DNA from: Gammaproteobacteria bacterium
GTDB lineage: Bacteria; Pseudomonadota; Gammaproteobacteria; Steroidobacterales; Steroidobacteraceae
Reading direction: 5' to 3'
Assembly: GCA_027307325.1 (NCBI GenBank)
Contig: DAHUXE010000175.1
Coordinates: 1-35,782 of the forward strand
Length of the DNA: 35,782 nt
Shown here piece by piece: positions 6,174 through 34,402 of this stretch. Position 1 is the stretch's first letter. The number at the start of each line of letters is the position of its first letter. The notes under the pieces were generated by a model. That model was not told the origin of the DNA. It saw nothing but the letters and a program-made list of their open reading frames with translations, and did no database searches. The translations under genes and the position numbers were made by a program.

Positions 6174-6174
6174 A

Positions 6175-6264
6175 TGGGCAAAAGTCGCCTTCGGCGCTTT
6201 TGCGGACAGCGCCTGCGTTTGCGCCGGCAAAGAGCGCGGTCTTTGCCGGCTGCTCAGTGCCGGG
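6175..6264 (+). repeat. Two-hairpin intergenic element, copy A
   Basis: The first of three related elements (others at 27353 and 34312). Hairpin 1 (6178-6203) pairs GCAAAAG with CTTTTGC and CGCC with GGCG around a TTC loop, with one bulged T. Hairpin 2 (6223-6250) is a perfect 11-bp stem, GCCGGCAAAGA with TCTTTGCCGGC, around a 6-base GC-rich loop. It starts two bases after the def stop and lies inside the def-fmt gap. No T-tract follows either hairpin, so it is not a canonical intrinsic terminator. The shared stem motifs GCAAAAG/CTTTTGC make hairpins 1 and 2 partly interchangeable. Confidence 0.85.
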
Positions 6265-6274
6265 GCTGTTAGCG

Positions 6275-7204
6275 TTGCGCGTCGCCTTCGCCGGCACGCC
6301 GGAATTCGCGGTGCCTGCGCTCGAGGCGCTGCTCGCGCTCCACCGCGTCGTCGGCATCCTCACACAGCCCGACCGCCCGAGCGGCCGCGGCCGCCTTCTC
6401 GCCGCATCTCCCGTGAAGGCCCTTGCCGAGGGGCACCACCTGCCGTGCCTGCAGCCGGCGACTCTGCGTGCAGAGGCACCGCTCGCCGCGCTCGCCGCCT
6501 GGAACCCCGACGTTCTCGTGGTCGTAGCCTACGGGCTCATCCTGCCGCCCGCGGTGCTCGGGCTCCCGCGTCACGGCTGTCTCAACATTCACGCCTCGAT
6601 CCTGCCGCGCTGGCGGGGCGCCGCTCCCGTGCAGCGCGCGATCCTCGCGGGCGATCCGGTCACGGGCGTCAGCATCATGCGGATGGACGAGGGACTCGAC
6701 ACCGGTCCCGTGCTCCTCACGCGGGAGAGCGCCATCGGCGCGCACGACACCGGCGGCTCGCTTACCCGCGCGCTCGCGGCGCTCGGCGCGGCGGCACTCA
6801 TCGACGCGCTCGAGGGCGTTGCCGCCGGGACGCTCGAGGCGCAGCCACAGCCACGCGAGGGCGCCACCTACGCGGCCAAGATCGGCAAATCCGAGGCTCG
6901 CATCGACTGGAGCCTCGACGCGGCGAGGATCGAGCGCCAGGTGCGGGCCTTCGATCCCTGGCCGATCGCCGAGACTGCCCTCGACGGGCAGCGCCTCCGC
7001 ATCCATTCTGCTGAGAATATGCAGGCAAGTGACGTTAAAAGCCATGATTCTGGTGCGATCATCTCAGTACGAGACGGTATCATGCTGGTCCAGTGTGGCC
7101 AGGGCCTGCTCGGCATCCGCAGAGTCCAGAAGCCGGGCGGGCGGGTCCTCGAGGTGTCCGAATTCGCTCACAACCTCGATCTCGTGGGCCGGCGTCTTGG
7201 CTAG
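6275..7204 (+). CDS. fmt: Methionyl-tRNA formyltransferase
   Basis: Transfers a formyl group from 10-formyl-THF to initiator Met-tRNA. The N-terminus reads (M)RVAFAGTPEFAVPAL, and the formyl-donor site motifs NIHASILPRWRGAAPVQRAI and MDEGLDTGPVL are intact, followed by the C-terminal tRNA-binding domain. The only start that gives the family N-terminus is TTG 6275; no ATG or GTG lies nearby in frame, and the Shine-Dalgarno is weak (CGGGGC). Length is 309 residues, slightly shorter than the usual 315. It follows repeat copy A and overlaps the start of rsmB by eight bases, so translational coupling to rsmB is likely. The weak start and the upstream hairpins hint at modest or regulated translation. 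Confidence 0.95.
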   Translation: MRVAFAGTPEFAVPALEALLALHRVVGILTQPDRPSGRGRLLAASPVKALAEGHHLPCLQPATLRAEAPLAALAAWNPDVLVVVAYGLILPPAVLGLPRHGCLNIHASILPRWRGAAPVQRAILAGDPVTGVSIMRMDEGLDTGPVLLTRESAIGAHDTGGSLTRALAALGAAALIDALEGVAAGTLEAQPQPREGATYAAKIGKSEARIDWSLDAARIERQVRAFDPWPIAETALDGQRLRIHSAENMQASDVKSHDSGAIISVRDGIMLVQCGQGLLGIRRVQKPGGRVLEVSEFAHNLDLVGRRLG

Positions 7205-8537
7205 GACGCCGTGGGCCCCGGGCGCCACGGCGCTGGCCGGGGCGGCCCGCGTCGTCGAGGCCGTCGTGGCGAGCGGCCGGTCGGCGGATGCCGCGCTCGC
7301 GGACGCGGAATCCACGGGTGAGCGAGCCGCCGTGCGTGCGATCGCGCTCGGGACGCTGCGCTGGTACCTGCGGCTCGCGCCGGCGCTCGAGGGATTGACG
7401 AAGCGGCCCTCCGGCATTGCGTCCCCGATACGCGCGCTGCTCGCCGTGAGCGCTCACCAGATCGAGTACTCGCGCAACGTGCCGCAGCAGACCGTGCACG
7501 CCGCGGTCGATGCGGCGCGCATCCTCGGCAGCGAGCGTTCCACCGGCCTCGTCAACGCGGTACTGCGCCGCTACCTCACGGAGCATACGGTCCTGCTCGC
7601 GCGGGTGGATCAGGAGCTGCCCGGACGCACCGCCCATCCCGCCTGGCTGGTCGAGCGGATCTGCGCCGCCTGGGGCGGGGCGTCCGAGGCGCTGCTCGCC
7701 GCCAACAACGCACATCCACCGCTCACGCTGCGCGTGGATCTCTCGCGTGCCAGTGCGGTGGACTACGTGGACCGGCTCCGCGAGGCCGGCATTGAAGCGC
7801 TGCCGATACAGTGGTGTCCGACTGCCGTGATTCTGCAGCGGCCAGTGCCCGTGGAGCGACTCCCCGGTTTCGCCGAAGGAGTGGTTTCCGTGCAGGATGC
7901 GGGAGCTCAGCTCGCGGCCCCGTTGCTCGCAGCCCGGGCGGGAATGCGGGTGCTCGACGTCTGCGCGGCGCCCGGGGGCAAGACCGGGCACATCCTGGAG
8001 CGGCTCGGCGAGGGGGTGGATGTCACGGCCGTCGACATCGAGGCGGCCAGAGTCGAGCTGATCCGTGAGAACCTCGTGCGCCTCAGGCGCGCAGCGCACC
8101 TGCGCGTCGGCGATGCGCGCGAGCCGCCAAGCTTCTGGGACGGGCGCCCCTTCGAGCGCATTCTGGTGGACGCCCCCTGCTCTTCCACGGGCGTCATCCG
8201 CCGGCACCCGGACATCAAGCTGCTGCGGCGCGCAAGCGACCTCCCGGCGCTCGCGACGGGTCAGCTCGCGATTCTCATGGCAGCCGAGCTCATGCTGGCC
8301 GTCGGCGGGCTGCTCGTCTATTGCACCTGCTCGGTACTTCCCGAGGAGAACGAGGCGATCGTGCAGCGCTTCCTCGAACGTGCGCCGCACATGCGGGCGG
8401 CTGGGATGCCACGCGCCGCCGAGCTCGCTCCCGGCGCCCTCGACCGGCCGGTGGGCATTCAGCTGTTATCCGGGGCAGAGGCGGGGACCGATGGGTTCTA
8501 TTATGCTTGTCTCGAAAAGACAACGGCCGGAACCTGA
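7197..8537 (+). CDS. rsmB: 16S rRNA m5C967 methyltransferase RsmB
   Basis: SAM-dependent enzyme that methylates C967 of 16S rRNA. The N-terminal NusB-like RNA-binding domain (about residues 10-140) contains VPQQTVHAAVDAARIL and GLVNAVLRRY. The Rossmann methyltransferase domain shows VQDAGAQLAAPLL, LDVCAAPGGKTGHIL (SAM site), DAPCSSTGVIRRHPDIK (the PC motif) and YCTCSVLPEENE (the catalytic TC motif). Both active-site cysteines are present. The most plausible start is TTG 7197, within the last codons of fmt and giving 446 residues; no ATG or GTG fits better. Gene order def-fmt-rsmB is ancient and common. Confidence 0.95.
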   Translation: MARTPWAPGATALAGAARVVEAVVASGRSADAALADAESTGERAAVRAIALGTLRWYLRLAPALEGLTKRPSGIASPIRALLAVSAHQIEYSRNVPQQTVHAAVDAARILGSERSTGLVNAVLRRYLTEHTVLLARVDQELPGRTAHPAWLVERICAAWGGASEALLAANNAHPPLTLRVDLSRASAVDYVDRLREAGIEALPIQWCPTAVILQRPVPVERLPGFAEGVVSVQDAGAQLAAPLLAARAGMRVLDVCAAPGGKTGHILERLGEGVDVTAVDIEAARVELIRENLVRLRRAAHLRVGDAREPPSFWDGRPFERILVDAPCSSTGVIRRHPDIKLLRRASDLPALATGQLAILMAAELMLAVGGLLVYCTCSVLPEENEAIVQRFLERAPHMRAAGMPRAAELAPGALDRPVGIQLLSGAEAGTDGFYYACLEKTTAGT

Positions 8538-8581
8538 GCGGTAAGCCACCAGTCCACCAATCGAGACCAGTCGTTGCATCC

Positions 8582-9181
8582 ATGCTACGCGGCGATCCAG
8601 CAAGGGATGGTTTGATCGGGCGGAGCCTCCTCACGACGCTCTGTGTGCTGGCTCTGGTCGCAACGCCCGCGCGGGCGCGGGCGGAAGCCCTCGACGGCGT
8701 ACTCGCGGTGCGCTCCGCGTACGTGAATATCGACCACGGGGTGTTTCTGCTGCACGCACGGGTGGACTACCCGGAGGGACTCGCGATCCGCAACGCGTTG
8801 CGGGACGGCATCACCCTGGCTTTCGACCTGGAAGTGCGCATCGAGAGGGAGCGGCGGCTCTGGTTCAACGCGAACATCGTCGAGGTCACCCTGCATCGCG
8901 AGCTCAGCTATCACGCGGTGAGCGACCGCTACGTGGTGCGTGACGTGCGCAGCGGCGATCAGGACACCTTCGCGACGCTCGACGAGGCGCTCGGCTCCAT
9001 CGGCAGGGTGGACGGCTGGCCGATCCTGGTGGAGCCGCAGCTCGATGGCGGCAACTACACGATCAGCGTGCGCGCCGGCGTGCGCCGCGGGCAGCTGCCG
9101 GCATCGCTGCGCGCGCTGATGTTCTGGACCGACGACTGGGCGCGCCAGAGCGAGTGGGACACATGGTCGCTGCCGGTATAA
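8582..9181 (+). CDS. DUF4390 exported protein
   Basis: A 199-residue protein with an N-terminal signal peptide (about residues 13-35, ending near ARARAEA), so probably periplasmic. The body, from LDGVLAVRSAYVNIDHGVFL to the C-terminal FWTDDWARQSEWDTWSLPV, is the conserved DUF4390 domain. This family is regularly encoded between rsmB and an NtrY-type kinase in Gammaproteobacteria. Function is unknown; an accessory role for the adjacent sensor kinase is inferred from the neighbourhood only. Its last 19 bases overlap the start of the kinase gene, implying translational coupling. Confidence 0.88.
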   Translation: MLRGDPARDGLIGRSLLTTLCVLALVATPARARAEALDGVLAVRSAYVNIDHGVFLLHARVDYPEGLAIRNALRDGITLAFDLEVRIERERRLWFNANIVEVTLHRELSYHAVSDRYVVRDVRSGDQDTFATLDEALGSIGRVDGWPILVEPQLDGGNYTISVRAGVRRGQLPASLRALMFWTDDWARQSEWDTWSLPV

Positions 9182-11412
9182 CCCCGCGCCGCCGGCGCCG
9201 CGCGCCGCTCAATGCCGTGGCGCTGGCGGTCTTCTCGGGCGCGATCGGCATCGGCGCCTTCCTGCTGCTCGCCAAGAGCGTGCAGAACTCGGGCGAGTTC
9301 GCCCGGCTGCAGTGGTGGATCGTGGTTTTCAGCACCGGCGCGGCGCTGGTGCTCACCGTGCTGGTGGTGCACAAGCTGTGGCGGCTGGCGCGCGACTACC
9401 GGGCGCACGTGCCGGGCTCGCGACTCACCGTGCGTACCGTCGCCATCTTCGGCTCGCTGGTGATCGCGCCGCTCCTGATCGTGTACCTGTCCTCCCTCGA
9501 GTTCCTGAACCGCGGCATCGACAGCTGGTTCACGGTGGAGGTGAAGCAGGGGCTCAACGATGCGGTGGTGCTGTCGCGCGCCGCACTCGACCTGCGCATG
9601 CGCGAGTACTCGCAGCGTACCGAGGCGCTGGCGCGCGAGCTCGCGACGCTGCCGCCCGCGGCGGTGCAGGCGCGTCTCGATGCCGAGCGGCGCGCCGGCG
9701 AGGCAATCGAGATCGCTCTGTTCGGCGCGCAGGGGCGCATCGTGGCGGCGAGCCTGGAGAATCCGCTCGAGGTGCTGCCGGCGCAGCCGCCGCAGGATCT
9801 GGTGCGTCAGGTGGCGCAGCACCTCCCCTACGTGAGCCTCGAGCCGCAGGCGGGAGGCCGCTACCTGATCCGCACCGGCGCACCGCTCAATGAGTCCGCG
9901 GCGAGCCACGATGCGCGCTTCGTCGCCGCCATCTACCCGGTGCCGGCGCAGCTCGCGGCGCTCTCGGAGGCGGTGCAGGGGACCTACTCGCAGTACGGCA
10001 ATCTCGCCGCCATGCGCGAGCCGCTCAAGTACAGCTTCAGCCTCACTCTCACGCTGGTGCTGCTGCTCGCCATGCTCGCCGCCATCTACGGCGCGATCTT
10101 CTCGGCGCAGCGCCTGGTGCGCCCGGTGCAGGATCTCATCGAGGGCACGCGCGCGGTCGGCAAGGGCGACTTCGCCACGCGGCTGCGGCTGCCGTCGCGC
10201 GACGAGATGGGCTATCTGGTGCACTCCTTCAACGACATGACCAAGCGGCTGCGGCGCGCGCGTGCCGAGGCGCAGCACAGCCAGGCGGCCGTGGAGCGCG
10301 AGCGCGAGCGGCTCGCGATCATCCTCGCGCGCCTCTCGACCGGGGTGCTCGCCGTCGACCGGCACATGACGGTGCGCATGGCGAACCAGGCGGCCGGGGC
10401 GATTCTCGGCACCGAGCTCGCCGCCGCTACGGGTAAGCCGCTGCCCGAGCTCGCCGCCGGCAACGAGCGGCTCGGCCAGTTCGTGGGCGCCCTCGCGGTG
10501 CGCTTCGCCGCCGGACGCGAGGAGTGGCGCGAGCAGCTCGATCTCGACGGTGCCACGGGCCGCCGCACGCTCATGTGCGCCTGCACCCCGCTGCCGGGCG
10601 AGGGCCGCGACATGGGTTTCGTGATCGTCTTCGACGACATCACGACACTGCTCGCGGCGCAGCGCGACGCTGCCTGGGGCGAGGTCGCGCGGCGCCTCGC
10701 GCACGAGATCAAGAACCCGCTCACCCCCATCCAGCTGTCGGCCGAGCGCCTGCGCCGCCGCCTGCGCAGCGGCATGAGCGAGCAGGACGCCGAGATCCTC
10801 GAGCGCGGCACCCGCACTATCGTGCAGCAGGTCGAGACCATGCAGCAGATGGTGAACGCCTTCAGCGAATACGCGCGGGCGCCCGAGATGCACATCACCC
10901 GCTTCAGTCTCAATCACCTCGTGACCGAGGTGGCAGACCTGTACCGCCCGCAGGCGCCGCGTACGCGCATCCGCCTCGACCTCGACTCGCGCCTCGAAGG
11001 AATCGAGGCGGACCGCGGCCGCGTGCGGCAGATTCTCAACAACCTCGTGACCAACGCGCTCGAAGCGCTCGAGGGCGTCGCGCAGCCGGCGCTCGAGATC
11101 GCCACGCGGCTCGAGAGCCAGGGGGATGGCGAGTACGCGAGCGTCACGGTGTGCGACAACGGCCCCGGATTCCAGCGCGAGCTGCTCGGGCGGGTGTTCG
11201 ATCCGTACGTGACCAGCAAGCCGAAGGGCACGGGGCTCGGGCTCGCGATCGTCAAGAAGATCGTCGAGGAGCATGGCGGCCGCATCGATGCGGACAACCG
11301 CCCGGAAGGCGGCGCCCGCGTGCGCGTGGTGCTGCCGGTGATGGACAGTACCCGCTCCGCCGGCGGCGGCGCGCGCGAGCGGCGTGATCAGATGCGGAGG
11401 GAAAGGGCATGA
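9163..11412 (+). CDS. ntrY: NtrY-type membrane sensor histidine kinase
   Basis: About 749 residues. Three N-terminal membrane segments (within about residues 15-115), an extracytoplasmic region, then a fourth segment (about 290-310) followed by HAMP, with RLVRPVQDLIEGTRAVGKGDF. A PAS-like region (about 390-500) precedes the HisKA box RRLAHEIKNPLTPIQLSAER, phospho-accepting His514. The ATPase domain has the N box NNLVTNALEALEG and glycine boxes DNGPGF and GTGLGLAIVKKI. Architecture and the ATGA overlap with a response regulator match NtrY of NtrYX systems, linked in other bacteria to nitrogen, redox or envelope control. Start ATG 9163 was chosen; GTG 9154 would add three residues. The input signal here is unknown. 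Confidence 0.92.
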   Translation: MVAAGITPRRRRRAPLNAVALAVFSGAIGIGAFLLLAKSVQNSGEFARLQWWIVVFSTGAALVLTVLVVHKLWRLARDYRAHVPGSRLTVRTVAIFGSLVIAPLLIVYLSSLEFLNRGIDSWFTVEVKQGLNDAVVLSRAALDLRMREYSQRTEALARELATLPPAAVQARLDAERRAGEAIEIALFGAQGRIVAASLENPLEVLPAQPPQDLVRQVAQHLPYVSLEPQAGGRYLIRTGAPLNESAASHDARFVAAIYPVPAQLAALSEAVQGTYSQYGNLAAMREPLKYSFSLTLTLVLLLAMLAAIYGAIFSAQRLVRPVQDLIEGTRAVGKGDFATRLRLPSRDEMGYLVHSFNDMTKRLRRARAEAQHSQAAVERERERLAIILARLSTGVLAVDRHMTVRMANQAAGAILGTELAAATGKPLPELAAGNERLGQFVGALAVRFAAGREEWREQLDLDGATGRRTLMCACTPLPGEGRDMGFVIVFDDITTLLAAQRDAAWGEVARRLAHEIKNPLTPIQLSAERLRRRLRSGMSEQDAEILERGTRTIVQQVETMQQMVNAFSEYARAPEMHITRFSLNHLVTEVADLYRPQAPRTRIRLDLDSRLEGIEADRGRVRQILNNLVTNALEALEGVAQPALEIATRLESQGDGEYASVTVCDNGPGFQRELLGRVFDPYVTSKPKGTGLGLAIVKKIVEEHGGRIDADNRPEGGARVRVVLPVMDSTRSAGGGARERRDQMRRERA

Positions 11413-12773
11413 GCAACCCACACATTCTCGTGGTCGATGACGAGGCGGACATCCGCGGCCTCCTGAAGGAGATCCTCTCCGAGGAAGGCTATGAGGTGGA
11501 CGTCGCCGCCAACGCTGCGCTGGCGCGCGCCTCGCGCGCGCGGCAGATCCCCGATCTCGTGCTGCTCGACATCTGGATGCCGGATGTCGACGGCATCACG
11601 CTGCTGCGCGAGTGGTCCACCGGTGCCGCCGACGGCTGCCCGGTCGTCATGATGTCCGGACACGGCACCGTCGAGACGGCGGTCGAGGCCACGCGCCTCG
11701 GAGCCTTCGACTTCGTCGAGAAGCCGCTGTCGCTCGCCAAGCTGCTGCGCACCGTGGAGCGTGCGCTGGATGCCGGGCGGCGTCATCGCCAGTCTGGCAA
11801 GCTACTCGGCGCTGCGCTCACGGCGCCGATCGGCAAGAGCCGCCTGATGCAGCAGCTGCGCGCCGAGCTGCAGCAGGTGGCGGCCAATTCCTCGCCGCTG
11901 CTGCTCATCGGCGAGCCGGGCTCGGGGCGCGAAGCGTTTGCGCGCTACGTGCACGAGCACGGACCGCACGCGGCGGAGCCGTTCATCACGCTGATCGCGA
12001 GCACGCTGCGCGAGGCGGACGCCGAGAGCCGCCTGTTCGGCCGCGAGGAGGCGGGGGCACGCGAGCAGGGGCTGCTCGAGCAGGCGGGCAACGGTACGCT
12101 CTTCATCCACGAGGTCGAGGACCTGCCCGCCGGCGTGCAGCGGCTCCTCTACGGCGTGCTCGAATCGGGCAAGTTCACGCGCGTCGCTGGAGCTGAGCCG
12201 GTGGCGCTGCGCGCGCGCCTCATCTCCTCGGCGCAGCCGGGCATCGAGCAGCGCGCCGGCGGCGAGACGCTGCGCCGCGATCTGCTGGCGCACCTCAACG
12301 TGCTCATCATGCGCGTGCCGCCGCTGCGCGAATATGCGGAGGACGTTCCGGACCTGCTGCGCTACCACGTCGACCGGGTGGTCGACAGCGAAGGACTCAC
12401 CTTCAGGCGCTTCAGCGTCGCCGCGCAGAATCGCCTGCGCAACTACCCCTGGCCTGACAATGTGCGCGAGCTCCGCCACCTGGTGCATCGCCTCCTGATC
12501 CACGGCGGGAGCGAGGAGATCCGCCTGGAGGAGATCGAGCGCGAGCTCGCCGTGCAGGCGCCGGCCGACGAGCCGCTGGTGAAGCAGGACCTGCTGGCGT
12601 TGCCGCTGCGCGAGGCGCGCGAGCAGTTCGAGCGCGCCTATCTGCAGCAGCAGCTGCTGCTCTGCAACGGCAAGGTCGGGCAGCTCGCCAAACGCGTCGG
12701 CATGGAGCGTACGCACCTGTACCGCAAGCTGCGGTCGCTGGGAGTGGACTTCAGGAATATCAGCGAGGACTAG
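11409..12773 (+). CDS. ntrX: NtrX-type response regulator with altered AAA+ domain
   Basis: A 454-residue regulator of receiver, AAA+ and Fis-type helix-turn-helix domains. The receiver is complete: acidic pair D10/D11, phospho-acceptor D54 in LVLLDIWMPDVDG, and the conserved Lys in FDFVEKP. The ATPase domain departs from the NtrC family: Walker A reads GEPGSGRE, so the catalytic Lys is Arg174; Walker B reads LFIHEV, so the Asp is His234; and the GAFTGA loop is missing, with only 11 residues between FG (210-211) and LEQA. The C-terminus VGMERTHLYRKLRSLGVD is a classic NtrX-like DNA-binding helix. It therefore probably binds DNA in response to phosphorylation but cannot activate sigma-54 polymerase in the usual way (inference). 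It overlaps ntrY by four bases. Confidence 0.92.
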   Translation: MSNPHILVVDDEADIRGLLKEILSEEGYEVDVAANAALARASRARQIPDLVLLDIWMPDVDGITLLREWSTGAADGCPVVMMSGHGTVETAVEATRLGAFDFVEKPLSLAKLLRTVERALDAGRRHRQSGKLLGAALTAPIGKSRLMQQLRAELQQVAANSSPLLLIGEPGSGREAFARYVHEHGPHAAEPFITLIASTLREADAESRLFGREEAGAREQGLLEQAGNGTLFIHEVEDLPAGVQRLLYGVLESGKFTRVAGAEPVALRARLISSAQPGIEQRAGGETLRRDLLAHLNVLIMRVPPLREYAEDVPDLLRYHVDRVVDSEGLTFRRFSVAAQNRLRNYPWPDNVRELRHLVHRLLIHGGSEEIRLEEIERELAVQAPADEPLVKQDLLALPLREAREQFERAYLQQQLLLCNGKVGQLAKRVGMERTHLYRKLRSLGVDFRNISED

Positions 12774-12786
12774 CCCTCATGCGCGG

Positions 12787-12902
12787 GGCCGCGATCGTCA
12801 GACAGGACCTTTCGGGGACGCCGCAAGTACGTCCCTGTAGGCTGCGGGCGCGCCATCCCAGGCGCGCACGCCCCCGAAAGCTCCTGTCTGACACTCGCGG
12901 CC
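12787..12902. repeat. Long inverted-repeat element, MITE-like
   Basis: Two 34-base arms (12787-12820 and 12869-12902) are reverse complements with four mismatches; each carries a TCAGACAGGA core near its outer part. The 48-base centre contains a second hairpin, GCGCGCC/GGCGCGC at 12848-12867. The whole fills the gap between ntrX and the TfoX-domain gene, ending six bases before the ATG of the latter. There is no transposase. The structure resembles palindromic or MITE-like intergenic repeats, but only one copy occurs here, so repeat status is inferred. Confidence 0.7.
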
Positions 12903-12908
12903 GTCCTG

Positions 12909-13274
12909 ATGACAGTCAGTGCTGATTATCTGCAGTACGTACTCGACCAGCTTGCCGCACTGAGCAACGTCAGCTCGCGGCGCATGTTCGGTGGCGTCGG
13001 GCTTTACAGCGACGCGCTGTTCTTCGGGCTGATAGCCGAGGACACGCTCTATCTGCGGGTCGACGACTCCAACCGGGATGACTACACGGCGCGCGCTGCG
13101 GCGCCGTTCCGGCCGTACGCGGACCGGCCGGACGTCAGCATGAGCTACTACGAGGCCCCGGCGGAGGTGCTGGAAGATACGCGGCAGCTCACCGAGTGGG
13201 CGCGGCGCTCGGTGGCGGTGGCACAGCGCGCACCGCCGCCGAAATCAGTGCGGCGGCGGCCGCTTCTCCGGTGA
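12909..13274 (+). CDS. TfoX N-terminal domain protein
   Basis: A 121-residue protein matching the N-terminal domain of TfoX/Sxy: RRMFGGVGLYSDALFFGLIAEDTLYLRVDD and a later MSYYEAP motif. It lacks the C-terminal TfoX domain found in the enterobacterial and Vibrio competence regulators, as is common for stand-alone N-domain proteins. Start ATG 12909 lies six bases past a long inverted-repeat element and has no recognisable Shine-Dalgarno. The 3' end overlaps the convergent DUF2059 gene by 30 bases. A link to competence is possible given dprA in the same region, but single-domain members are not proven regulators. Confidence 0.88.
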   Translation: MTVSADYLQYVLDQLAALSNVSSRRMFGGVGLYSDALFFGLIAEDTLYLRVDDSNRDDYTARAAAPFRPYADRPDVSMSYYEAPAEVLEDTRQLTEWARRSVAVAQRAPPPKSVRRRPLLR

Positions 13275-13829
13275 GGGCGGGGGCTCCTGAGCCGACGGCG
13301 GCTCGCCCGGCGATGCGGGCGGGGGGCTGGCAGCGTCCTTGATCCGTTGCGCCGTCTCCTTTTGCAGCTCGACGATGCGGGGAACCAACGCGCGCACCCG
13401 CTCCTGCGTCAGCTGCATCATCTGCTGGGTCGCCTGCGGGAGCTTCGCGACCACGGCCTGACCACCCGGGGAACTATAGAACTTGAGCATTGCGTCGATC
13501 TCGCCGGGGGTGAAGTTGCTGCGGTATACCTCGATCATCTGCGGCTCGAGGCGCGGCCAGGCGAGCTCGTCCTTCAGCATCCCCTCGATCTTCGCGCGCA
13601 TGTCGTCGTGCAGTTGCTGCTGCTGCGCGTTGAGGGGCCGGCCGCCCGTGGCCCGCTCGAGCGCCCCGCGGAGGTTGGTATCCATCTGCGACATGACCGT
13701 GTCGATCATCTGACTGGTATGCATGACCCCGAAGAGGCGGCGCACCGATTCCTCGCTCGGCTTGGCGTTCTCGGCGAACGCGGTCGGCAGCCCGAGCAGT
13801 GCAACCGCGGCCACCATGCAGATTCTCAT
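13245..13829 (-). CDS. DUF2059 exported protein
   Basis: A 194-residue protein with a clear signal peptide (MRICMVAAVALLGLPTAFA) and a helical DUF2059 domain (about residues 70-165) including VYRSNFTPGEIDAMLKFYSS and GGQAVVAKLP. The C-terminal 30 residues are Pro/Ser/Glu-rich and probably disordered. Start ATG 13829 is preferred to an upstream in-frame GTG at 13847 because it gives a standard signal peptide. It starts four bases after the stop of the SPOR-domain gene, so it is the last gene of a priA-argS-SPOR-DUF2059 run. The function of the family is not known; a periplasmic location is expected. Confidence 0.88.
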   Translation of the reverse strand: MRICMVAAVALLGLPTAFAENAKPSEESVRRLFGVMHTSQMIDTVMSQMDTNLRGALERATGGRPLNAQQQQLHDDMRAKIEGMLKDELAWPRLEPQMIEVYRSNFTPGEIDAMLKFYSSPGGQAVVAKLPQATQQMMQLTQERVRALVPRIVELQKETAQRIKDAASPPPASPGEPPSAQEPPPSPEKRPPPH

Positions 13830-13833
13830 GTGC

Positions 13834-14415
13834 CTAGTCTCCCACACGGATCACCAGCGCATCCACCTCGGCGGCCCGCAGCTGCTTGCGCACCTTGTTG
13901 AGCTCGGCGAGATTGGTGATCGGGCCGAGGCGCACGCGGTGCCAGACGTCGGCGTCGATCGCCACGCGCTGCACTTTGGCCTGCACGCCCTGCAGCGCGA
14001 GCTGCTGCCGCACGCGCTCGGCGTCGGCCTCGTTGCGATAGGAGCCGGCCTGCAGCACGTACACGCCGGGCCGCTCGATCGGTGCGCCGGCGGGCTGATC
14101 GCGCTTGACCTCCTTGTCCTTCTCCGGCACCACCACCTCGAAATTCGGCAGCATCCGATAGAAGTCGTACTTCTCCGAGCCCTTGGCCGGGGACGTCTCG
14201 CCCGGCTCGCCGCCGGCGTCCCGCGCGCGGCGCGGATCGGGGCGGGGCGCGTCGGCGAGCTCGGCGGCCTTGTGGCTCCTGCCGCCGGCATAGACGAACG
14301 CCACGCTCGCGAGCGCCGCCCCGGCGAGCAGCCCGAAGCCGAACTCGCGCCAGCGCGATAGCTCGAGCGGGCGGCGCGCGGTCCTCTTGTAGTCGCGGGA
14401 GGTGAGTTTCGCCAT
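13834..14415 (-). CDS. SPOR-domain membrane protein (FtsN-like)
   Basis: A 193-residue bitopic protein: short cytoplasmic N-terminus with basic residues (MAKLTSRDYKRTARRP), one membrane segment (about 25-44), a charged linker, and a C-terminal SPOR domain (about 117-192, from PGVYVLQAGSYRNEADAERV to VDALVIRVG). SPOR domains bind denuded glycan strands at the division septum. Position directly after argS, small size and topology match the FtsN-like proteins found at this locus in many Gammaproteobacteria. It may assist septal peptidoglycan synthesis; whether it is the true FtsN cannot be told from sequence alone. Confidence 0.92.
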   Translation of the reverse strand: MAKLTSRDYKRTARRPLELSRWREFGFGLLAGAALASVAFVYAGGRSHKAAELADAPRPDPRRARDAGGEPGETSPAKGSEKYDFYRMLPNFEVVVPEKDKEVKRDQPAGAPIERPGVYVLQAGSYRNEADAERVRQQLALQGVQAKVQRVAIDADVWHRVRLGPITNLAELNKVRKQLRAAEVDALVIRVGD

Positions 14416-14436
14416 ACGCCCGGAAGCTCCCGCGCC

Positions 14437-16197: not shown

Positions 16198-16281
16198 GGG
16201 TGTTCTTCGGCCGACAGCAAAACGCGCGCGCGGCGCCTCGCGGGAAGTTTACCCGAAGCGCCCATGCGGTACGCCGCGCGC

Positions 16282-18498: not shown

Positions 18499-18500
18499 CA

Positions 18501-18514
18501 GATTTAGCTAAATC
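18501..18514. promoter_or_regulatory. Perfect 14-bp AT-rich palindrome, possible operator
   Basis: GATTTAGCTAAATC is its own reverse complement and sits in the gap between divergent priA and the sigma-factor gene, three bases from the priA GTG. Its AT-rich makeup stands out in this GC-rich sequence. It could be an operator acting on both genes or overlap a priA translation signal. No protein can be assigned to it. Confidence 0.35.
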
Positions 18515-18573
18515 AATGGCTTGTGATCATCGAGGGCGTCAACCGGGCGGGGTACGCGCGCGTTATACACGCC

Positions 18574-20546: not shown

Positions 20547-20571
20547 TCGCCCATGTGCCTGGGGCGCTACG

Positions 20572-21881: not shown

Positions 21882-21898
21882 TCAGCCGGTCTCCTTCC

Positions 21899-23689: not shown

Positions 23690-23741
23690 CGCGACACCTC
23701 TCCTCAGGCGGCGCCCCGCCGAACGGCGATCAGCGTCCGCT

Positions 23742-25130: not shown

Positions 25131-25435
25131 CAGTGCGTTCCTTTCTTCGCGCCGCGCTGCCCGCTCGACTTGAACATCTCGAGCATGCGCTCGGTCACGA
25201 CGTAGCCGCCGACGGCGTTGCCGGCCGCGAGCAGCACGCCGATGACGCCGATGGTCTTCTCGAGCGTAGTGACGGCGTTGCCGAGCGCGACCATCGCGCC
25301 GACCAGCACGATGCCGTGCACGAAGTTCGAGCCCGACATGAGCGGCGTGTGCAGGATCACCGGCACGCGCGAGATGACCTCGTAGCCGGTGAAGGCCGCC
25401 AGCATGAAGATATAAAGTGCCACCATTCCGGTCAT
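25130..25435 (-). CDS. pntAB: NAD(P) transhydrogenase subunit alpha, membrane part
   Basis: A 101-residue membrane protein equal to the C-terminal membrane segment of PntA, encoded separately as in Rhodospirillum rubrum and many other bacteria. About three TM helices are seen; the blocks LAAFTGYEVISRVPVILHTP and MSGSNFVHGIVLVGAM are characteristic. The C-terminus is cytoplasmic, basic and short (SSGQRGAKKGTH). It begins one base after the pntAA stop region and overlaps pntB by one base, forming a compact three-gene operon. Confidence 0.95.
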   Translation of the reverse strand: MTGMVALYIFMLAAFTGYEVISRVPVILHTPLMSGSNFVHGIVLVGAMVALGNAVTTLEKTIGVIGVLLAAGNAVGGYVVTERMLEMFKSSGQRGAKKGTH

Positions 25436-25436
25436 G

Positions 25437-26561: not shown

Positions 26562-26636
26562 TCAGTATCCCTCGCAGTGCCGTGGCTGCCCGGCCACGCG
26601 ACTTGAAAATTTCAATTTAATTAAGATGTTGCGGTG

Positions 26637-26666
26637 TTGAATTCTTGCACAAAAGTGCCGTATCTT
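26637..26666 (+). promoter_or_regulatory. Candidate promoter of the HNH gene
   Basis: TTGAAT (26637-26642) and TATCTT (26661-26666) are spaced by 18 bases. The predicted start of transcription lies at about 26673-26675, at the ATG itself, which would give a leaderless or near-leaderless mRNA. Just upstream is an AT-rich stretch with TGAAA-A-TTTCA (26603-26613), a small inverted repeat that could bind a regulator. Confidence 0.35.
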
Positions 26667-26674
26667 ACAGCGTT

Positions 26675-27349
26675 ATGCCCGGGATCGACCTCGATCGTGC
26701 TGACCACGGCCTCCTCGACGACCTCGCGGTGATCGCCACACACGCGCCGCGCGGGCTATCGCAGCTCGTGCTGCGCACGGACGTGGCCGGGATGCCGCTC
26801 GAGTGGATCGATTACAAGGAAGCCGCGCGACTTTACACCCAGAGCCAAGTCGCATACACGTGCGGCTCGCTGCTCTATGAGCTGTACGGCGGCACCAATG
26901 CGCGCACCGGGCGCCGCACCGTGCTCGAGGTGAACTCGATCGTCGCCACGGTGGGCCACACCGGTAATCCCGGCAACACGCGCCACGACTACATCCCGCC
27001 GCTCAACAACCAGACCCTGTTCCGGCGCGATGCGTACCTGTGCATGTACTGCGGGCTGCGCTTCCCCTCGCGCGAGCTGTCGCGCGATCACATCCGCCCC
27101 TTCAGCCAGGGGGGCACGGACATCTGGACCAACGTCGTGGCTTCCTGCCGCCGCTGCAACAACCAGAAGGCCTCGCGCACTCCCGAGCAGGCGCGCATGC
27201 AGCTGATCGCGGTGCCGTTCACGCCTACCTACGCGGAGTACATTTTCCTCAAAGGGCGGCGCGTGCTGGCCGACCAGATGGAGTACCTGGTGGCGCACTT
27301 CCCGCGCACCAGCCCGCTGCACGACCGTATCCGCACCTATTTGAGCTAG
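26675..27349 (+). CDS. HNH endonuclease family protein
   Basis: A 224-residue protein. The N-terminal half (about 28-105) has LVLRTDVAGMPLEWIDYKEAARLY, seen at the start of a chromosomal HNH family of Gammaproteobacteria. The HNH domain (about 110-170) shows CMYCG, the catalytic-type LSRDHIRPFSQGGTDIWTN, and CRRCNNQKASRTPEQA; four cysteines form a zinc-ribbon frame. It probably binds Zn and nicks or cuts nucleic acid, but the biological substrate is unknown and there is no adjacent methylase or phage gene. ATG 26675 is chosen; the first 28 residues look poorly conserved, so ATG 26792 is a possible but less likely start. Repeat copy B begins right after the stop. Confidence 0.87.
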   Translation: MPGIDLDRADHGLLDDLAVIATHAPRGLSQLVLRTDVAGMPLEWIDYKEAARLYTQSQVAYTCGSLLYELYGGTNARTGRRTVLEVNSIVATVGHTGNPGNTRHDYIPPLNNQTLFRRDAYLCMYCGLRFPSRELSRDHIRPFSQGGTDIWTNVVASCRRCNNQKASRTPEQARMQLIAVPFTPTYAEYIFLKGRRVLADQMEYLVAHFPRTSPLHDRIRTYLS

Positions 27350-27352
27350 TTA

Positions 27353-27444
27353 ATTGGGCAAAAGTCGCCTGCGGCGCTTTTGCCGGACATCAGCTTTGTT
27401 GCCGGCGGCAACAGGAGCGACTTTTGCCGCCTGCGCATCAGGGA
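27353..27444 (+). repeat. Two-hairpin intergenic element, copy B
   Basis: Related to copies A and C. Hairpin 1 (27358-27383) is nearly identical to that of copy A, with a TGC loop in place of TTC. Hairpin 2 (27404-27431) pairs GGCGGCAA with TTGCCGCC and AG with CT, with one mismatch, around a GAGCGA loop. In this copy the 5' arm GGCAAAAGTCGC (27357-27368) is also an exact reverse complement of GCGACTTTTGCC (27417-27428), so two exclusive folds are possible. It lies directly after the HNH stop. The 85 bases from here to the exonuclease start hold no clear signal. Confidence 0.85.
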
Positions 27445-27529
27445 TGCGGTTTTGGCGGGTACGTCCGTGTGACCGGGAGACGGTCAGGGCGCGTGACGGT
27501 CTGGGGCGCCGCCTGCTAAGGTCCGCGGC

Positions 27530-28426
27530 GTGATCTTCCTCGTCGACGCCTCGGTCTACGTCTTCCGCGCCTACCACTCGATGCTGCCGGATATGCGCGA
27601 TGCGGACGGCAATCCGACGCACGCGGTGTTCGGCTTCGCACGGTTCCTCGGCGATCTCATCGAGCGCGTGCGCCCCGCCTACATGGCGGTGGCCTTCGAC
27701 CAGCGTGGCCAGCACTCCTACCGGCGCGGCATCTACCCCTCGTACAAGGCCAACCGCGAGCCGGCCCCGGCGGCGCTGACGCAGCAGTTCGGGCGCTGCC
27801 GCGAGCTGTGCCGGCATCTGGGTATCGCGGAGTTCGTATACCCGGAGTACGAGGCCGACGACATCATCGGCACGCTCGCGGGAGTGATGCGCGCGGCCGG
27901 CGTGCGCGCCGCCTTCATCACGCGCGACAAGGATCTCGCGCAGCTGATGCGCGACGGCGACCTGTTCTGGGACTTCGGCGCCCGCGGACAGTTCGGCTAT
28001 CACGACATCGAGCGCCATTTCGGCGTGCAACCCGAGCGCTTCGCCGATTACCTGGCGCTCGCCGGGGACGAGTCCGACAACATCCCGGGCGTGCCGGGCG
28101 TCGGACACCGCACCGCCGCCTCGCTCATGAAGGCGTTCGCCTCGCTCGATGACCTCTACGACGATCTCGAGCGTGTCGCCCGCCTCAAGATCCGCGGGTC
28201 GGGCACGCTCGGCGCACGTCTCGCCGCGCATCGCGATGCGGTGTATCTCGCCCAGCGGCTCACGCGCATCGCCTGCGACCTGCCGCTCGGCGTCGGCGCC
28301 GCCGGGCTCGTGCGCCGCGCTCCGGACCTTGCGGCGCTGTCGCGCCTCTACGACCGGCTCGGCTTCGGTCCGTTCCTGCGTAAGCAGGGGACGCGCCTGG
28401 CGCAGCTGCCCGCGGCGTACGCCTGA
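27530..28426 (+). CDS. Stand-alone 5'-3' exonuclease (PolA exo-domain family)
   Basis: A 298-residue protein equal to the 5' nuclease domain of DNA polymerase I without the polymerase. Metal-binding acidic motifs are present: FLVDASVYVFRAYH, VAFDQRGQHSYRRGIYPSYK, EYEADDIIGTLAG and ITRDKDLAQLM, and the helix-3-turn-helix DNA-binding motif reads ESDNIPGVPGVGHRTAASL. It likely processes flaps or RNA primers and resembles ExoIX/Xni or free-standing FEN-like nucleases. Start is GTG 27530, which gives the family N-terminus (M)IFLVDAS. It follows the HNH gene and repeat copy B; a functional link between the two nucleases is not evident. Confidence 0.92.
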   Translation: MIFLVDASVYVFRAYHSMLPDMRDADGNPTHAVFGFARFLGDLIERVRPAYMAVAFDQRGQHSYRRGIYPSYKANREPAPAALTQQFGRCRELCRHLGIAEFVYPEYEADDIIGTLAGVMRAAGVRAAFITRDKDLAQLMRDGDLFWDFGARGQFGYHDIERHFGVQPERFADYLALAGDESDNIPGVPGVGHRTAASLMKAFASLDDLYDDLERVARLKIRGSGTLGARLAAHRDAVYLAQRLTRIACDLPLGVGAAGLVRRAPDLAALSRLYDRLGFGPFLRKQGTRLAQLPAAYA

Positions 28427-28455
28427 AGCGCACGCTTGCTGCGCGCCATGACGCC

Positions 28456-29343
28456 ATGGAGTCCTGGCCAGCGGTCGCGGCGGAGCTGACGCTTCTCACC
28501 GGCACGAGCTTCGGACCCGAGCCCGAGCGGCGCGTCGCCGGCGGCAGCATCAACCGCTGCTACCGCTGGCCGACGGAATCGGGCCCGGCGTTCGTCAAGG
28601 TGGCGGCAAGCGCCGCCGCGCCGATGCTCGAGGCCGAGGCCGCCGGAATCGCCGAGCTCGCGCGCGCCCGCGCGGTGCGCGTGCCGCGCGTACTGGCGTG
28701 CTCCCGCGCCGGGGCGTCGGCCTTTCTCGCGCTCGAGTGGCTCGAGGCCGGCGCCGCCACCGAGGCGAGCGCCGAGCGCTTAGGCCGGCAACTCGCCGCG
28801 CAGCACGCCGTCACCGCGCCGCAGCACGGCTGGTGGCGCGACAACACCATCGGCAGCACGCCGCAGGCGAACGGTGCCATGGACTCGTGGCCGGAGTTCT
28901 TCCGCGAGCGGCGCCTGCGCCCGCAGCTTCGGCTCGCCGTGGCGAACGGCTTCGGCGCGCTGCTGGAAACGCCCGGCGAGCGGCTGCTCGAGGGGGTTGG
29001 AGCGCTCCTTGAGACGCATCGCCCGCAGCCCTCGCTCCTGCACGGGGATCTGTGGGGCGGCAACTGGCTCGCGACGCCCGACGGCGAGCCGGCGATCTTC
29101 GATCCGGCGGTGTACTACGGGGACCGCGAGACGGATGTCGCGATGACCGCGCTCTTCGGGGGTTTCGGTCCGCGCTTCTACCGGGCCTACGCTGCGGCGG
29201 CCCCGCTGCCGCCCGGGGCGGAGCTGCGGCGCGAGCTCTATAACCTCTATCACGTGTTGAACCACGCCAACCTCTTCGCCGGCGGCTACGCCGCGAGTGC
29301 GCGCCGCGTGATCGAGCGGCTGCTCGCGGAGCTACGCGGTTAG
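28456..29343 (+). CDS. Fructosamine kinase family protein
   Basis: A 295-residue kinase of the aminoglycoside phosphotransferase-like fold. VAGGSINRCYRW is the N-lobe start, FVKVAA holds the ATP-binding Lys, and LLHGDLWGGNW and AIFDPAVYYGDRETDVAMTALFG are the catalytic and metal-binding loops diagnostic of fructosamine-3-kinase relatives. NTIGSTPQ and FFRERRLRPQL are further family blocks. These enzymes phosphorylate ketoamines on glycated proteins or small molecules so they break down (deglycation). Length is normal. It starts 29 bases after the exonuclease gene and may share its transcript. Confidence 0.93.
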   Translation: MESWPAVAAELTLLTGTSFGPEPERRVAGGSINRCYRWPTESGPAFVKVAASAAAPMLEAEAAGIAELARARAVRVPRVLACSRAGASAFLALEWLEAGAATEASAERLGRQLAAQHAVTAPQHGWWRDNTIGSTPQANGAMDSWPEFFRERRLRPQLRLAVANGFGALLETPGERLLEGVGALLETHRPQPSLLHGDLWGGNWLATPDGEPAIFDPAVYYGDRETDVAMTALFGGFGPRFYRAYAAAAPLPPGAELRRELYNLYHVLNHANLFAGGYAASARRVIERLLAELRG

Positions 29344-29401
29344 AGGCTATGCTGCGCACCCGGCCCCGTGCCGGCGCAATTCACTGTCCTGAGGGGTGAG
29401 T

Positions 29402-31584
<2,183 letters not shown>

Positions 31585-31588
<4 letters not shown>

Positions 31589-33759
31589 GCCCCGAGCTCC
31601 GTGCCCGCGGTCGCGTCGAGTCCTAGCACGACGAGCTGCTGCTCGAGCCGTTCGCGGAGGTTGCGCGGCCGATCGAGCGCCATGCGCTTGAGCGCGGCCG
31701 CGTGCCGCGGCCCGGGGCTTGCGCCGATCGCGGCCGCCGCTGCGGTGGCGAGCAGGGCGCGGGTCGAGCCGGCGCGCGCATCGAGGTAGCGAAGCGCGCG
31801 CACCAGCGCGGTCTCTTCGGCTGTGAGGTCGGTGCCGAAGGGATACTCGCTGAAGAATCCCCTGCGGCGATGCTCGGCGAAGGTGCGCGCCAGGTGCTGC
31901 GGCGTGTTGTCGCGGCAGGCGTCCGGGATACGGTAGTCGGCGCGGATCTTGCCGGCGCGCACGGCCTGCGCCAGCAGCCCTTCCTGGAAGCGCGAGTCGG
32001 CGACGTTGAGCAGCGCCATGATGATCTCCTCGTCGGTGCGGCCGCGCAGGTCGGCGGCGCCGTATTCGGTGACCACGATGTCGCGCAGGTGCCGCGGGAT
32101 AGTCTCGTGGCCGTAGCTCCAGAGGACGTTCGAGGTGCTGCGGCCGTGCTCGCTGCGTGTGGCGCGCAGGCACAGGATCGAGCGCGCCCCGGGCAGCGCG
32201 TGCGCCATGGCGACGAAGTTGTACTGGCCGCCGACGCCGCTCACCACCCGCCCGCTCTCGAGGGCGTCGGAGACGGCAGCCCCGAGCAACGTCACCATCA
32301 TGGTGCTGTTGATGAAGCGCGCGCCACGGCGCTGCAGGGTGCGCAGCTCCTGGTCCGCGCCATAGAGCTGGTTGATGTAGCCGACCCCGCGCATGCCGAA
32401 GCGGCCGCGGGTGCTTTCGGGCAGGTCGCGCAGCGCCGCGTAGAACCCGCGGGGACCGACGAAGAATCCGGCGTGCAGCACCTGGCCGTTGCGCAGCTCG
32501 CGCCCCAGGCACTCGCCGAGGCGCGCGCGGCTCGCGGGGTCGCCGAGGTCCGCCTCGATCCAGCCGCCGCCGCGGCCACGGACGCGCCCCGCGTCAAACT
32601 CGACGTCGGCACGGAACACGCCGTGGTGCTGCAGCTCGGCGAACTCGGCGGCGCTCAGGCGCGGCCCCATGCCGGCCTCGGCCAGCAGCCCGAGGATGCC
32701 TTCGTCGAAGCGCTCGCCGATCCGGCCGGCAGCGAGCAGCCGCTCGAGCGCCAGACAGTCATACACCGGGCGGCGCAGGACTCCCGCGTGATACAGCTCG
32801 AGCAGCTGTGCGACGAACATCTCCGTGGCGGCGTACAGGCCGCTCACGAACGGCTCCGTGCCCCCAACCGCTGCGCGCAGCGGCGCCGCCGTGCCGTGCG
32901 GATCGAGCGCCTCGAGCGCGGCGCGCCAGGAGGCGTTCTGCTGATGGCGCAGCAGCAGCGCATAGATCGTCGCCTCGGCCAGCTCGCCGATGCCCACCTG
33001 CAGCGTGCCGCCATCGCACACCAGGCTGCTGGCATGCATGCCGATGGCGTGGTGGGCGATGCTGAGCGGCGGGTTCGGCGGGCAGAACAGGTCGTAGTCG
33101 TAGCGCGGATCATCCACCAGGAAGTCGAAACGCCGCGGGTCCACCTGCGCGTGGCCGGTCATGAAGGGCATCTGCGCGTGGGTCTCGCCTACCAGCACGA
33201 TGTCGCGACCGGCCTGGCGCTCCGCGTCGATGAGCGGCAGCAGGTCGGCGGTGACGTCGGCATTGGACCCGAGGCTGAGCAGCATCTCGCCGTCCTGTGC
33301 ACGCCGCGCCACGAGCTGGGCGATCACGTTGACGCCGCGCGCCAGGCAGTCGCGCGCCACGTGGGTGTAGTTCGAGCACAGGTAATCACGCTGCGCCTGA
33401 GTTGAGCCGAGGAACTGTCCGAGTGTCAGGAAGAACTCGCTGACGCGCACATTGGCGGGCAGCGCGTCATGCAGCAGCGCACGCGCGTATTCGGGCTCGA
33501 CGTAGTTGCCGAACACGCGCGCGACCAGCGGCGTCGTCAGGCGCGCCTCCAGCGCCGAGCGGGCGCCCGGCTTCAGCAGCGACAGCGCCGTCAGGATGGT
33601 GAGGTCGATGCCCGGATCGCGCAGCGCGCGGCGGTAGAACTCGTTGACGAGCGGATTGGGCTTGCCGATGCCGAGCGGCAGCGCCAGCACGATGCGCGAT
33701 CCCACCCGCCGCAGCACCGCGTCGACGCAGTGTCCGACGTCGTTGAATATTTCAGGCAT
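31585..33759 (-). CDS. Acetyl-CoA hydrolase/transferase family protein
   Basis: A 724-residue long-form member of the acetyl-CoA hydrolase/CoA-transferase family. The N-terminal half carries [20 protein letters not shown], with later blocks [20 protein letters not shown]. The C-terminal AcCoA-hydrolase domain shows [20 protein letters not shown] and [18 protein letters not shown], where the Glu in TEYG is expected to form the CoA thioester. Start ATG 33759 ([16 protein letters not shown]) is preferred to in-frame starts up to 33861, which add unlike residues and run into the divergent cupin gene. It would move CoA between acetyl-CoA and another acid or release acetate, opposite in direction to the neighbouring acs. 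Confidence 0.9.
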
Positions 33760-33830
33760 GCGAGTTGTGGCATGCTCCCCGATGACGACGCGGCGCGTCA
33801 ACCGCGCGCCGCGCACCCAAGGAGCGCGAC

Positions 33831-34307
33831 ATGGCATCGCAGAGGCAGGCCATCGAGGCACGCAGCGTCACGGCGCAGAGCCGCTCGAGTTATCCGGAGC
33901 CCTACCGCTCGCGCGTGCTGCCGCGCGAGAAGCGCCGCCTGGGCGATGCTTTCGGGCTGACGCGCGTCGGCATCAACCAGACGACGCTGCCGCCGGGCAA
34001 GGAGTCGTCGATGCGCCACTGGCACACGCGCGAGGACGAGTTCGTGTACGTCCTCGAGGGGGAGGTGGTGCTGCGCACCGGCGCCGGCGAGCAGCTGCTC
34101 ACCGCCGGCATGTGCGCCGGGTTTCCTGCCGGCGTCGAGGACGGGCACCAGCTCATCAACCGCAGCGGCCGCCCGGCGGTCTACCTCGAGGTGAGCAACC
34201 GCGATCCGGAGGACGAAGGGCGCTACTCCGAGCCCGACGTGGACCTGGTGTGGAACGCGCCGCACGCCCGCGGCAGGATGAGCCGCCGCGACGGCAGGCC
34301 GTACTGA
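33831..34307 (+). CDS. Cupin-domain protein
   Basis: A 158-residue single-domain cupin. Motif 1 is HWHTREDEFVYVLEGEVVL, giving ligands His63, His65 and Glu70; motif 2 is FPAGVEDGHQLIN, giving His106. Together they make a standard metal site. No signal peptide. Substrate and reaction cannot be told: small cupins include isomerases, dioxygenases and binding proteins. Start ATG 33831 has an AAGGAGCG ribosome site. It is divergent from the CoA-transferase gene over a 71-base gap without a clear promoter, and repeat copy C starts five bases after the stop. Confidence 0.9.
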   Translation: MASQRQAIEARSVTAQSRSSYPEPYRSRVLPREKRRLGDAFGLTRVGINQTTLPPGKESSMRHWHTREDEFVYVLEGEVVLRTGAGEQLLTAGMCAGFPAGVEDGHQLINRSGRPAVYLEVSNRDPEDEGRYSEPDVDLVWNAPHARGRMSRRDGRPY

Positions 34308-34311
34308 TCTA

Positions 34312-34402
34312 TAGGCCAAAATCGTCTGCGACGATTTCGGCGGACATTAACTTCGATTGTCGCCGGCGAAAGGCGTGACTTTCGCCGGCTGCGCAGCAGG
34401 GA
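34312..34402 (+). repeat. Two-hairpin intergenic element, copy C
   Basis: The most diverged copy. Hairpin 1 (34316-34340) pairs CCAAAATCGTC with GACGATTTCGG around TGC, with one mismatch. Compared with copies A and B several pairs differ on both sides, keeping the stem. Hairpin 2 (34362-34389) is a perfect 11-bp stem, GCCGGCGAAAG with CTTTCGCCGGC, around GCGTGA. A third small stem, CAGG/CCTG with AGC/GCT, follows. It lies between the cupin gene and the convergent YceI gene. Confidence 0.82.

Follow-up and report, generated by a model that had tools for sequence, protein, structure and literature searches.

Three two-hairpin elements behind stop codons

The window analysed in this study is a 35,782-nucleotide stretch of DNA (assembly GCA_027307325.1, contig DAHUXE010000175.1, positions 1 to 35,782) from a gammaproteobacterium of the family Steroidobacteraceae, whose 2.98 Mb genome is referred to below as the source genome (G000 in our genome set). 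It carries three related copies of a two-hairpin element, designated A, B and C, all on the plus strand and directly 3' of stop codons, where an earlier note made from the sequence alone had placed them. Genes were called with a home-made hexamer gene caller seeded with known genes and neighbouring genes were named via Pfam, whilst copies of the element were scored in cmsearch with a covariance model built from 10 copies or half-copies.

Copy A (6174-6263, 82.3 bits) lies between def, which ends with the stop codon TAA at 6171-6173, and fmt, for which a TTG start was taken as 6275; its hairpin 1 spans 6178-6203 and its hairpin 2, which is the core hairpin with the loop GCGCGG, spans 6223-6250. 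Copy B (27353-27444, 96 bits) separates an HNH endonuclease gene (stop codon TAG, 27347-27349) from a 5'-3' exonuclease gene starting at 27530, and comprises a hairpin 1 at 27357-27384 and a hairpin 2 with an imperfect core at 27404-27431. Copy C (34311-34402, 100.6 bits) is situated between two convergent genes, a cupin gene with the stop codon TGA at 34305-34307 and a YceI-like gene on the minus strand (34441-35061), with hairpin 1 at 34315-34341 and hairpin 2, the core hairpin with the loop GCGTGA, at 34362-34389. The model starts 0 nt behind the stop codon in copy A and 3 nt behind it in both copies B and C.

The three copies have a common order and spacing, a GGACA spacer and a TGC tail, the tail of copy A being the most degenerate. 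RNA folding was unusually good for copies B and C (z-scores of -3.79 and -3.65, respectively), and copy A (-1.31) showed nothing unusual alone. None of the three copies was found to have an intrinsic terminator with a T-tract, in keeping with the earlier note, and nothing in the whole window matched Rfam at the gathering score. An Rfam search at a low threshold returned BjrC68 with 23.1 bits, under its cut-off of 39.

A repeat family in the source genome

A blastn search with copy B recovered 10 places in the source genome, and with the covariance model a threshold of E<=1 gave 83 matches and one of E<=0.01 gave 45, with E-values reaching 7e-23. The genome search proposed in the earlier note hence revealed far more than three sites. 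Some weak matches echo strong ones on the opposite strand, and 38 rows make up the list of source-genome copies used below. Chance resemblance was considered and rejected, given E-values to 7e-23 in one genome and covariation that exceeds its controls; it is also countered by the tail motif, which, with one mismatch allowed, was found 64 times versus 12 in the control.

The consensus of the element begins with ATTGG, followed by hairpin 1 (stem of 11-12 bp), GGACATYA, a linker, hairpin 2 (an 11-bp stem with the loop GCGYGR) and the tail TGCGCA-CAGGGA. In 8 of the 38 copies the hairpin-1 arm and GGACATYA were seen by eye to be repeated after the tail. There is also a long form of approximately 175 nt, compared with the usual 90-120 nt or so, in which a conserved insert of about 70 nt lies inside the loop of hairpin 2. 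A relaxed pattern search yielded eight examples, plus one false hit, at the fetched loci L002, L009, L029, L033, L059, L181, L418 and L420 (L-labels denote single fetched loci, G-labels the other genomes compared). Further long forms are present in G021, at the locus of copy B, and in L099, a locus of a named metagenome-assembled genome (MAG). At L002 a convergent downstream gene seems, by eye, to enter the element and to end at a TGA within it (approximately 1648-1700).

Covariation in both hairpins

Among the first ten rows aligned, 11 of the 23 base pairs were changed on both sides, compared with 4.1 in shuffles. The alignment was then extended to 103 distinct copies from six genomes, taken from model matches at E<=1e-10 in 97 loci. 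Because this alignment was fitted to the structure it is biased toward pairing, and shuffled and slid rows served as controls. Of 2345 cells, 96.9% were paired, compared with 81.8% after shuffling and 30-51% after sliding; double-change cells numbered 287, as against 57 and 10-34, respectively; and the covariation score was 0.371 versus 0.104 in shuffled rows. The slid controls suggest that the fitting bias does not account for an effect of this size. The paired stem changes pointed out between the window copies are real and recur across the family, and the excess of paired substitutions supports the proposal that the fold is under selection.

Hairpin 1 has 12 modelled pairs, with 94.8% of cells paired. 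Its innermost modelled pair is unpaired in 41 of the 103 copies, since the AGGAA-type loop is larger. The earlier note had described this loop as TNC/TGC, but two main kinds are present: CCTGCGG occurs in 38 of the 103 copies and CAGGAAG in 28 (closing bases included). The 3' foot of hairpin 1 is mostly GGACAT (59/103). The six-base loop reported for hairpin 2 was borne out, in that GCGYGR closed by an R-Y pair is kept in 79 of the 103 rows although the stem varies.

Placement of the element at stop codons

Placement was assessed for 152 copies (from the source genome, its relatives and G043), with both neighbouring genes called for 137 of these. Gene calls that run into an element were set apart and not scored as a distance of 0, and the rows are not fully independent, as tandem copies and other orthologues remain. 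In the source genome, 31 of the 38 copies have an upstream gene directed at their 5' end; 25 of these lie at -1 to +9 nt from the stop codon, and in the other six the gene call enters the element by 12-82 nt. Across the 137 copies, 71 were between convergent genes, 35 between tandem genes in the sense orientation, 20 between tandem genes in the inverted orientation and 11 between divergent genes, such that many copies lie 3' of genes, as the earlier note had expected for a repeat family.

In the sense-tandem class the 5' end of the element falls at -6 to +9 nt from the upstream stop codon in 32 of 35 cases, with one overlapping more and two lying far away. Where at least 60 nt was free, 15 of 17 were within 9 nt of the stop codon, compared with 1.4 expected under uniform placement, and none of the 17 was close to the downstream gene. 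Between convergent genes, 59 of 71 copies had their 5' end at -6 to +9 nt from the stop codon (six overlapped more and six were far), and with at least 60 nt free the figure was 9 of 13, versus 1.0 expected. Removal of seven G043 copies at sites shared with the source genome left these values at 30/33 and 15/17 for the sense-tandem class and 56/68 and 9/13 for the convergent class. The 5' end of the element is thus anchored at the stop codon.

The consensus at the 5' junction is approximately Y-T-N-K-TTN-ATTGG (150 copies). The GTAG signature, already noted as missing from the window copies, is absent from both this consensus and the foot of hairpin 1. Within an eight-base stretch at the junction, with reading frame ignored, TAG was present in 56 of the 150 copies, TGA without TAG in 25 and TAA alone in nine, and 60 had no stop codon. 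These junctions bear on the possibility that the element is a miniature inverted-repeat transposable element (MITE) mobilised by a DDE transposase whose target contains TA, for instance CTAG, in which case docking would follow from target choice alone. Nine of the ten CTAG sites in the window overlap a called stop codon, hence a preference for CTAG would by itself lead to stop codons; moreover, the 5' junction is often (C/T)TAG, the downstream repeat of the hairpin-1 arm in 8 of 38 copies provides partly matching ends, and one related unit (L442) is flanked by CTAG at both ends. However, the junctions that have TGA without TAG indicate that such a preference is not the whole story, and those with no stop codon also count against it. 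By eye, matching terminal inverted repeats are absent or degenerate in most copies of the source genome, no autonomous insertion sequence with such ends was seen, though no search aimed at DDE transposases was made, and DDE transposases are not known to need long covarying internal hairpins. We consider a MITE unlikely on this evidence, but not remote, because the ends and the target duplication of the element could not be fixed.

Distribution and mobility among relatives

At E<=0.01 the model matched 15 of the 25 genus genomes scanned, the source genome among them, and none of 15 genomes that belong to other families of the order. In a wider scan with a stricter filter, 4 of 196 genomes were matched, all within the 12 listed genomes of the genus, and none of the 184 outside the genus list, 172 of which were not listed one by one. 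Among the genomes scanned, the two-hairpin family was found in one genus only, and is patchy there. Plasmid and phage collections gave no match to a single 201-base query from a distant relative. Copy numbers in carriers (E<=0.01) ranged from one (G007, G008) to 45 in the source genome, with 40 in G002, 19 in G010, 12 in G005 and six in G003. Five extra genomes of the genus, picked for their neighbour loci and not randomly, were all matched, G043 having 68 matches at E<=0.001. Most of the 14 copies fetched from the 7.9 Mb genome of G010 (L236-L249) are fairly alike and have a hairpin 1 of another type, forming a subfamily that suggests a recent spread in that genome.

Orthologous sites were compared among relatives. 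The best named ones, traced through Fmt, are MAGs of uncultured organisms that carry the labels Proteobacteria, Gammaproteobacteria or Steroidobacteraceae, which makes the host probably an uncultured member of Steroidobacterales. Amongst 16 named def/fmt loci, the element is present in L098, L099 and L103, all three being found there by the model (among 25 of 80 loci given to it), and it is missing from L096, L097, L100, L107 and L120, in which the def stop codon lies within about 12 nt of the fmt start. Of 30 loci orthologous to that of copy B (L285-L314, the source genome included), the source genome and G021 have the element, one other locus scoring 15.1 bits; G043 has no copy there though its upstream flank is 93% identical. 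Five more loci of this kind matched the family at noise level only (<=19.5 bits), and two of them contain the second family described below. The dnaK/dnaJ site is filled in the source genome, and of 20 fetched loci it is filled in G043 and G040, weakly matched in G050 (18.3 bits) and G052 (15.5 bits) and without a match in 16.

A comparison with 41 G043 loci (40 fetched from its 68 matches, plus L315; one-flank matches excluded) matched 10 of the 38 source-genome copies on both flanks, whilst the remaining 28, copy B apart, were not shown to be empty in G043. At two of these 10 sites the element is oriented oppositely in the two genomes, which is best accounted for if elements docked repeatedly at identical points. 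Since orthologous sites are empty or filled among relatives, and two are filled in opposite orientation, the element is mobile; together with the differences in copy number, this supports the spread of a palindromic mobile element that the earlier note had put forward.

An alternative is that the repeats are RNA elements, acting in bidirectional 3' processing or as stabilising mRNA hairpins, and are kept behind genes by selection. The proportion of copies between convergent genes (71/137, compared with three of the window's 32 neighbouring gene pairs) would suit such a role, as would the def/fmt site, where two adjacent base pairs of hairpin 2 have changed in a compensatory manner between copy A and the G043 copy. 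Hairpins of repetitive extragenic palindromes (REPs) have likewise been proposed to act in mRNA (PMC3733652). However, copies A, B and C have no T-tract, copies differ among close relatives and can take either orientation at one site, and 20 of the 137 copies are inverted to both genes and 11 lie between divergent ones. This explanation accounts for retention of the element but not for its spread, and as the whole explanation we regard it as somewhat unlikely; an RNA role acquired after insertion is plausible and compatible with a mobile element.

The core hairpin and a second, four-hairpin family

Searched as an exact sequence, the hairpin-2 core GCAAAARGCGYGRYTTTTGC was present in 17 of 296 genomes of the order, some of them from other genera of this family, and in six of 369 genomes of the class, the source genome included; a reversed-pattern control gave none in the rows listed. 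Of ten core sites read outside the genus, the one at L444 is located within a called gene and may be a chance occurrence. The core is also found in other architectures, the chief one being a four-hairpin element. In an alignment of nine four-hairpin rows, 94.0% of cells were paired versus 87.8% after shuffling, with 19 double changes versus 5.9. A model of this second family gave nine matches in the source genome; among 40 relatives searched with it nine had matches, and these all belong to the genus. Four-hairpin elements stand behind stop codons on contigs C3, C195 and C180 of the source genome (L195, L188 and L191, respectively). Of 30 four-hairpin loci fetched, 20 were placeable; 14 of these had both an upstream gene in the sense orientation and a downstream gene call, and in 12 of the 14 the element lies at -6 to +12 nt from the stop codon, or 11 of 13 distinct elements with one duplicate merged.

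The four-hairpin model also aligned all of 10 loci (L481-L488, L490 and L491) from four other families of Gammaproteobacteria, with E-values between 1e-10 and 4e-4 for a search space of 69 kb; these E-values are flattered, as the loci were picked by the core, which therefore helps the score. Several of these distant relatives start directly after a stop codon (by eye). In other genera of the family, L431 and L432 contain tandem arrays of core-hairpin units with periods of 68 and 85 bases. Tentatively, and with considerable doubt, these elements might form a gammaproteobacterial superfamily of modular hairpin elements, in which a common recognition hairpin, GCAAAARGCGYGRYTTTTGC, and docking at stop codons would be kept whilst the outer hairpins are swapped between families, and which would be moved by a putative, hitherto undescribed hairpin-reading enzyme other than a REP-associated transposase.

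The GGA motifs in the hairpin loops raise the question of a Csr/Rsm-type protein-binding RNA. AGGA is present in the hairpin-1 loop of 32 of the 103 copies, the distant relative L486 has a weak RsmW match of 36.5 bits, and the minus-strand loops of the four-hairpin elements resemble, as judged by eye, the CsrA/RsmA consensus. The RsmW score is nevertheless below the curated 52 bits, RsmV reached only 18.7 against 100 bits in L488 and the window had no match; furthermore, the strand that bears the GGA motifs differs between the two families (by eye) and 71 of the 103 two-hairpin loops are devoid of AGGA. Such an RNA is accordingly a very improbable explanation.

Search for a mobilising gene

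REPs of the GTAG type are associated with REP-associated tyrosine transposases (RAYTs), and RAYT genes were sought with PF01797 (Y1_Tnp) in the source genome and 24 further genomes, which covered ten carriers, several of them incomplete; carriers G017, G018, G019, G021, G022 and G043 were outside this search. No PF01797 match was found in eight of the ten carriers (G000, G002, G005, G007, G009, G010, G014 and G015). Matches were obtained in 9 of the 24 genomes, with 5 of 14 control genomes positive. A script search of the loci of the strong same-genus matches (G003, G004) for motifs of the element found none. Seven loci between close element pairs were also inspected, and their translations by eye showed no transposase, the encoded proteins including FabH, PlsX, CheY-like and CBS-domain proteins.

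These results bear on whether the element is a GTAG- or CGTC-type REP moved by a RAYT encoded elsewhere or since lost. Hairpin 1 read on the minus strand has a TGTC-like tag (from GGACA) before it and CCAAT after it, REPtrons can be lost (PMC3733652), and PF01797 matches do occur in carriers G003 and G008. On the other hand, the eight carriers without a match include those with 45, 40, 12 and 19 copies, the stems are of 11-12 bp compared with the reported 8-9 bp, and hairpin 2 is without such a tag. An origin of this kind appears quite improbable.

Relation to known repeats and proposed mechanism

The nearest described kind of element is the REP, above all the CGTC REPs. As described by Di Nocera et al. 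2013 (PMC3733652), these are likewise small extragenic palindromes beside the 3' ends of genes, lie mostly between convergent or unidirectional genes and have no dedicated transposase known; they are reported mainly from the alpha-Proteobacteria. Their TGTC tag variant and CCA-like tail (PMC3733652) resemble, by eye, hairpin 1 on the minus strand, where the GGACA/AGACA-type spacer found after hairpin 1 in most of the 103 rows reads TGTCC/TGTCT, with CCAAT at the other foot. Their stems are of 8-9 bp (PMC3733652), however, and unlike them the present element couples hairpin 1 to a second, untagged core hairpin and has its 5' end fixed to the stop codon.

GTAG REPs, bacterial interspersed mosaic elements (BIMEs) and REP doublets forming hairpins (REPINs) are similarly palindromic and intergenic near gene 3' ends (PMC3733652, PMC8266576). 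In RAYT systems the enzyme is described as recognising the hairpin, and the ends of GTAG REPs often provide a TAG stop codon (PMC3733652, PMC8266576), the placement of REPs near stop codons being already known (PMC3733652). In contrast, the element has no GTAG at the hairpin foot, contains two different hairpins instead of inverted copies of one, and was not accompanied by a RAYT in most of the carriers tested. MITEs such as RUP, Correia/NEMIS and YPAL (PMC2229807) are comparable in being non-coding, intergenic and shorter than 200 bp, with empty and filled sites; in contrast, neither distinct terminal inverted repeats nor a target duplication of constant length was seen here, and the internal hairpins covary. 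The mycobacterial interspersed repetitive unit (MIRU; PMC12548453) is also a small mobile repeat at codon boundaries, a functional likeness only, but inserts at start codons and carries a gene-coupled open reading frame, whereas the present element is anchored at stop codons and no reading frame is proposed for it. It differs from described REPs in its two-hairpin make-up, its tight 5' anchoring, a core common to two families, the missing tag and its stem length. Text searches of the literature, including searches with two hairpin sequences, found no description of the element, most subscription journals falling outside their coverage.

We favour, with some reservation, the explanation that this is a mobile, palindromic and non-coding piece of DNA akin to REPs, approximately 90-120 nt long, which is recognised by its hairpins by a putative enzyme and docks at stop codons. 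Both hairpins, but mainly hairpin 2 with its near-fixed GCGYGR loop, would be recognised by the mobilising enzyme, probably on single-stranded DNA. On insertion the 5' end, with a consensus of approximately YTAG or TGA followed by TTN-ATTGG, would come to lie at the stop codon, or more rarely the element would be placed the other way round, and reading frames would thereby stay closed. After insertion the hairpins would sit in the 3' ends of mRNAs, which they may secondarily protect. The fixed loop on varied stems and the covariation would fit an enzyme reading folded single strands, as TnpA-REP is described to do (PMC8266576), yet a different one. The family itself, its covariation, its presence or absence among relatives, its anchoring at stop codons and the failure to detect a RAYT gene in most carriers tested are observations, whereas we infer that the hairpins are recognised, that a single-stranded stage takes part and what kind of enzyme acts.

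Several observations weigh against this explanation. Of the 137 copies placed, 20 are inverted to both genes and 11 are between divergent genes. PF01797 matches are present in carriers G003 (strong; six copies) and G008 (weak; one copy), no mobilising gene was identified, and ordinary genes lie between close element pairs. Deletion or gene conversion, and not insertion, could lie behind some of the differences between sites. Moreover, the 3' end is variable and the target-site duplication could not be fixed: comparison by eye of empty and filled sites at three loci gave no unambiguous one.

The spread of REP-like repeats without a RAYT, such as the CGTC REPs, has been stated to be an open question (PMC3733652). 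With the usual enzyme not found in most tested carriers, the elements described here, which have spread within a group of soil bacteria, may point to an undescribed way of moving, and their defined core hairpin and docking point, together with sites that are filled in one genome and empty in another, make the mobiliser searchable by co-occurrence and the cost of docking measurable. The family also illustrates a way for mobile DNA to take up residence in a compact genome whilst leaving its genes unbroken.

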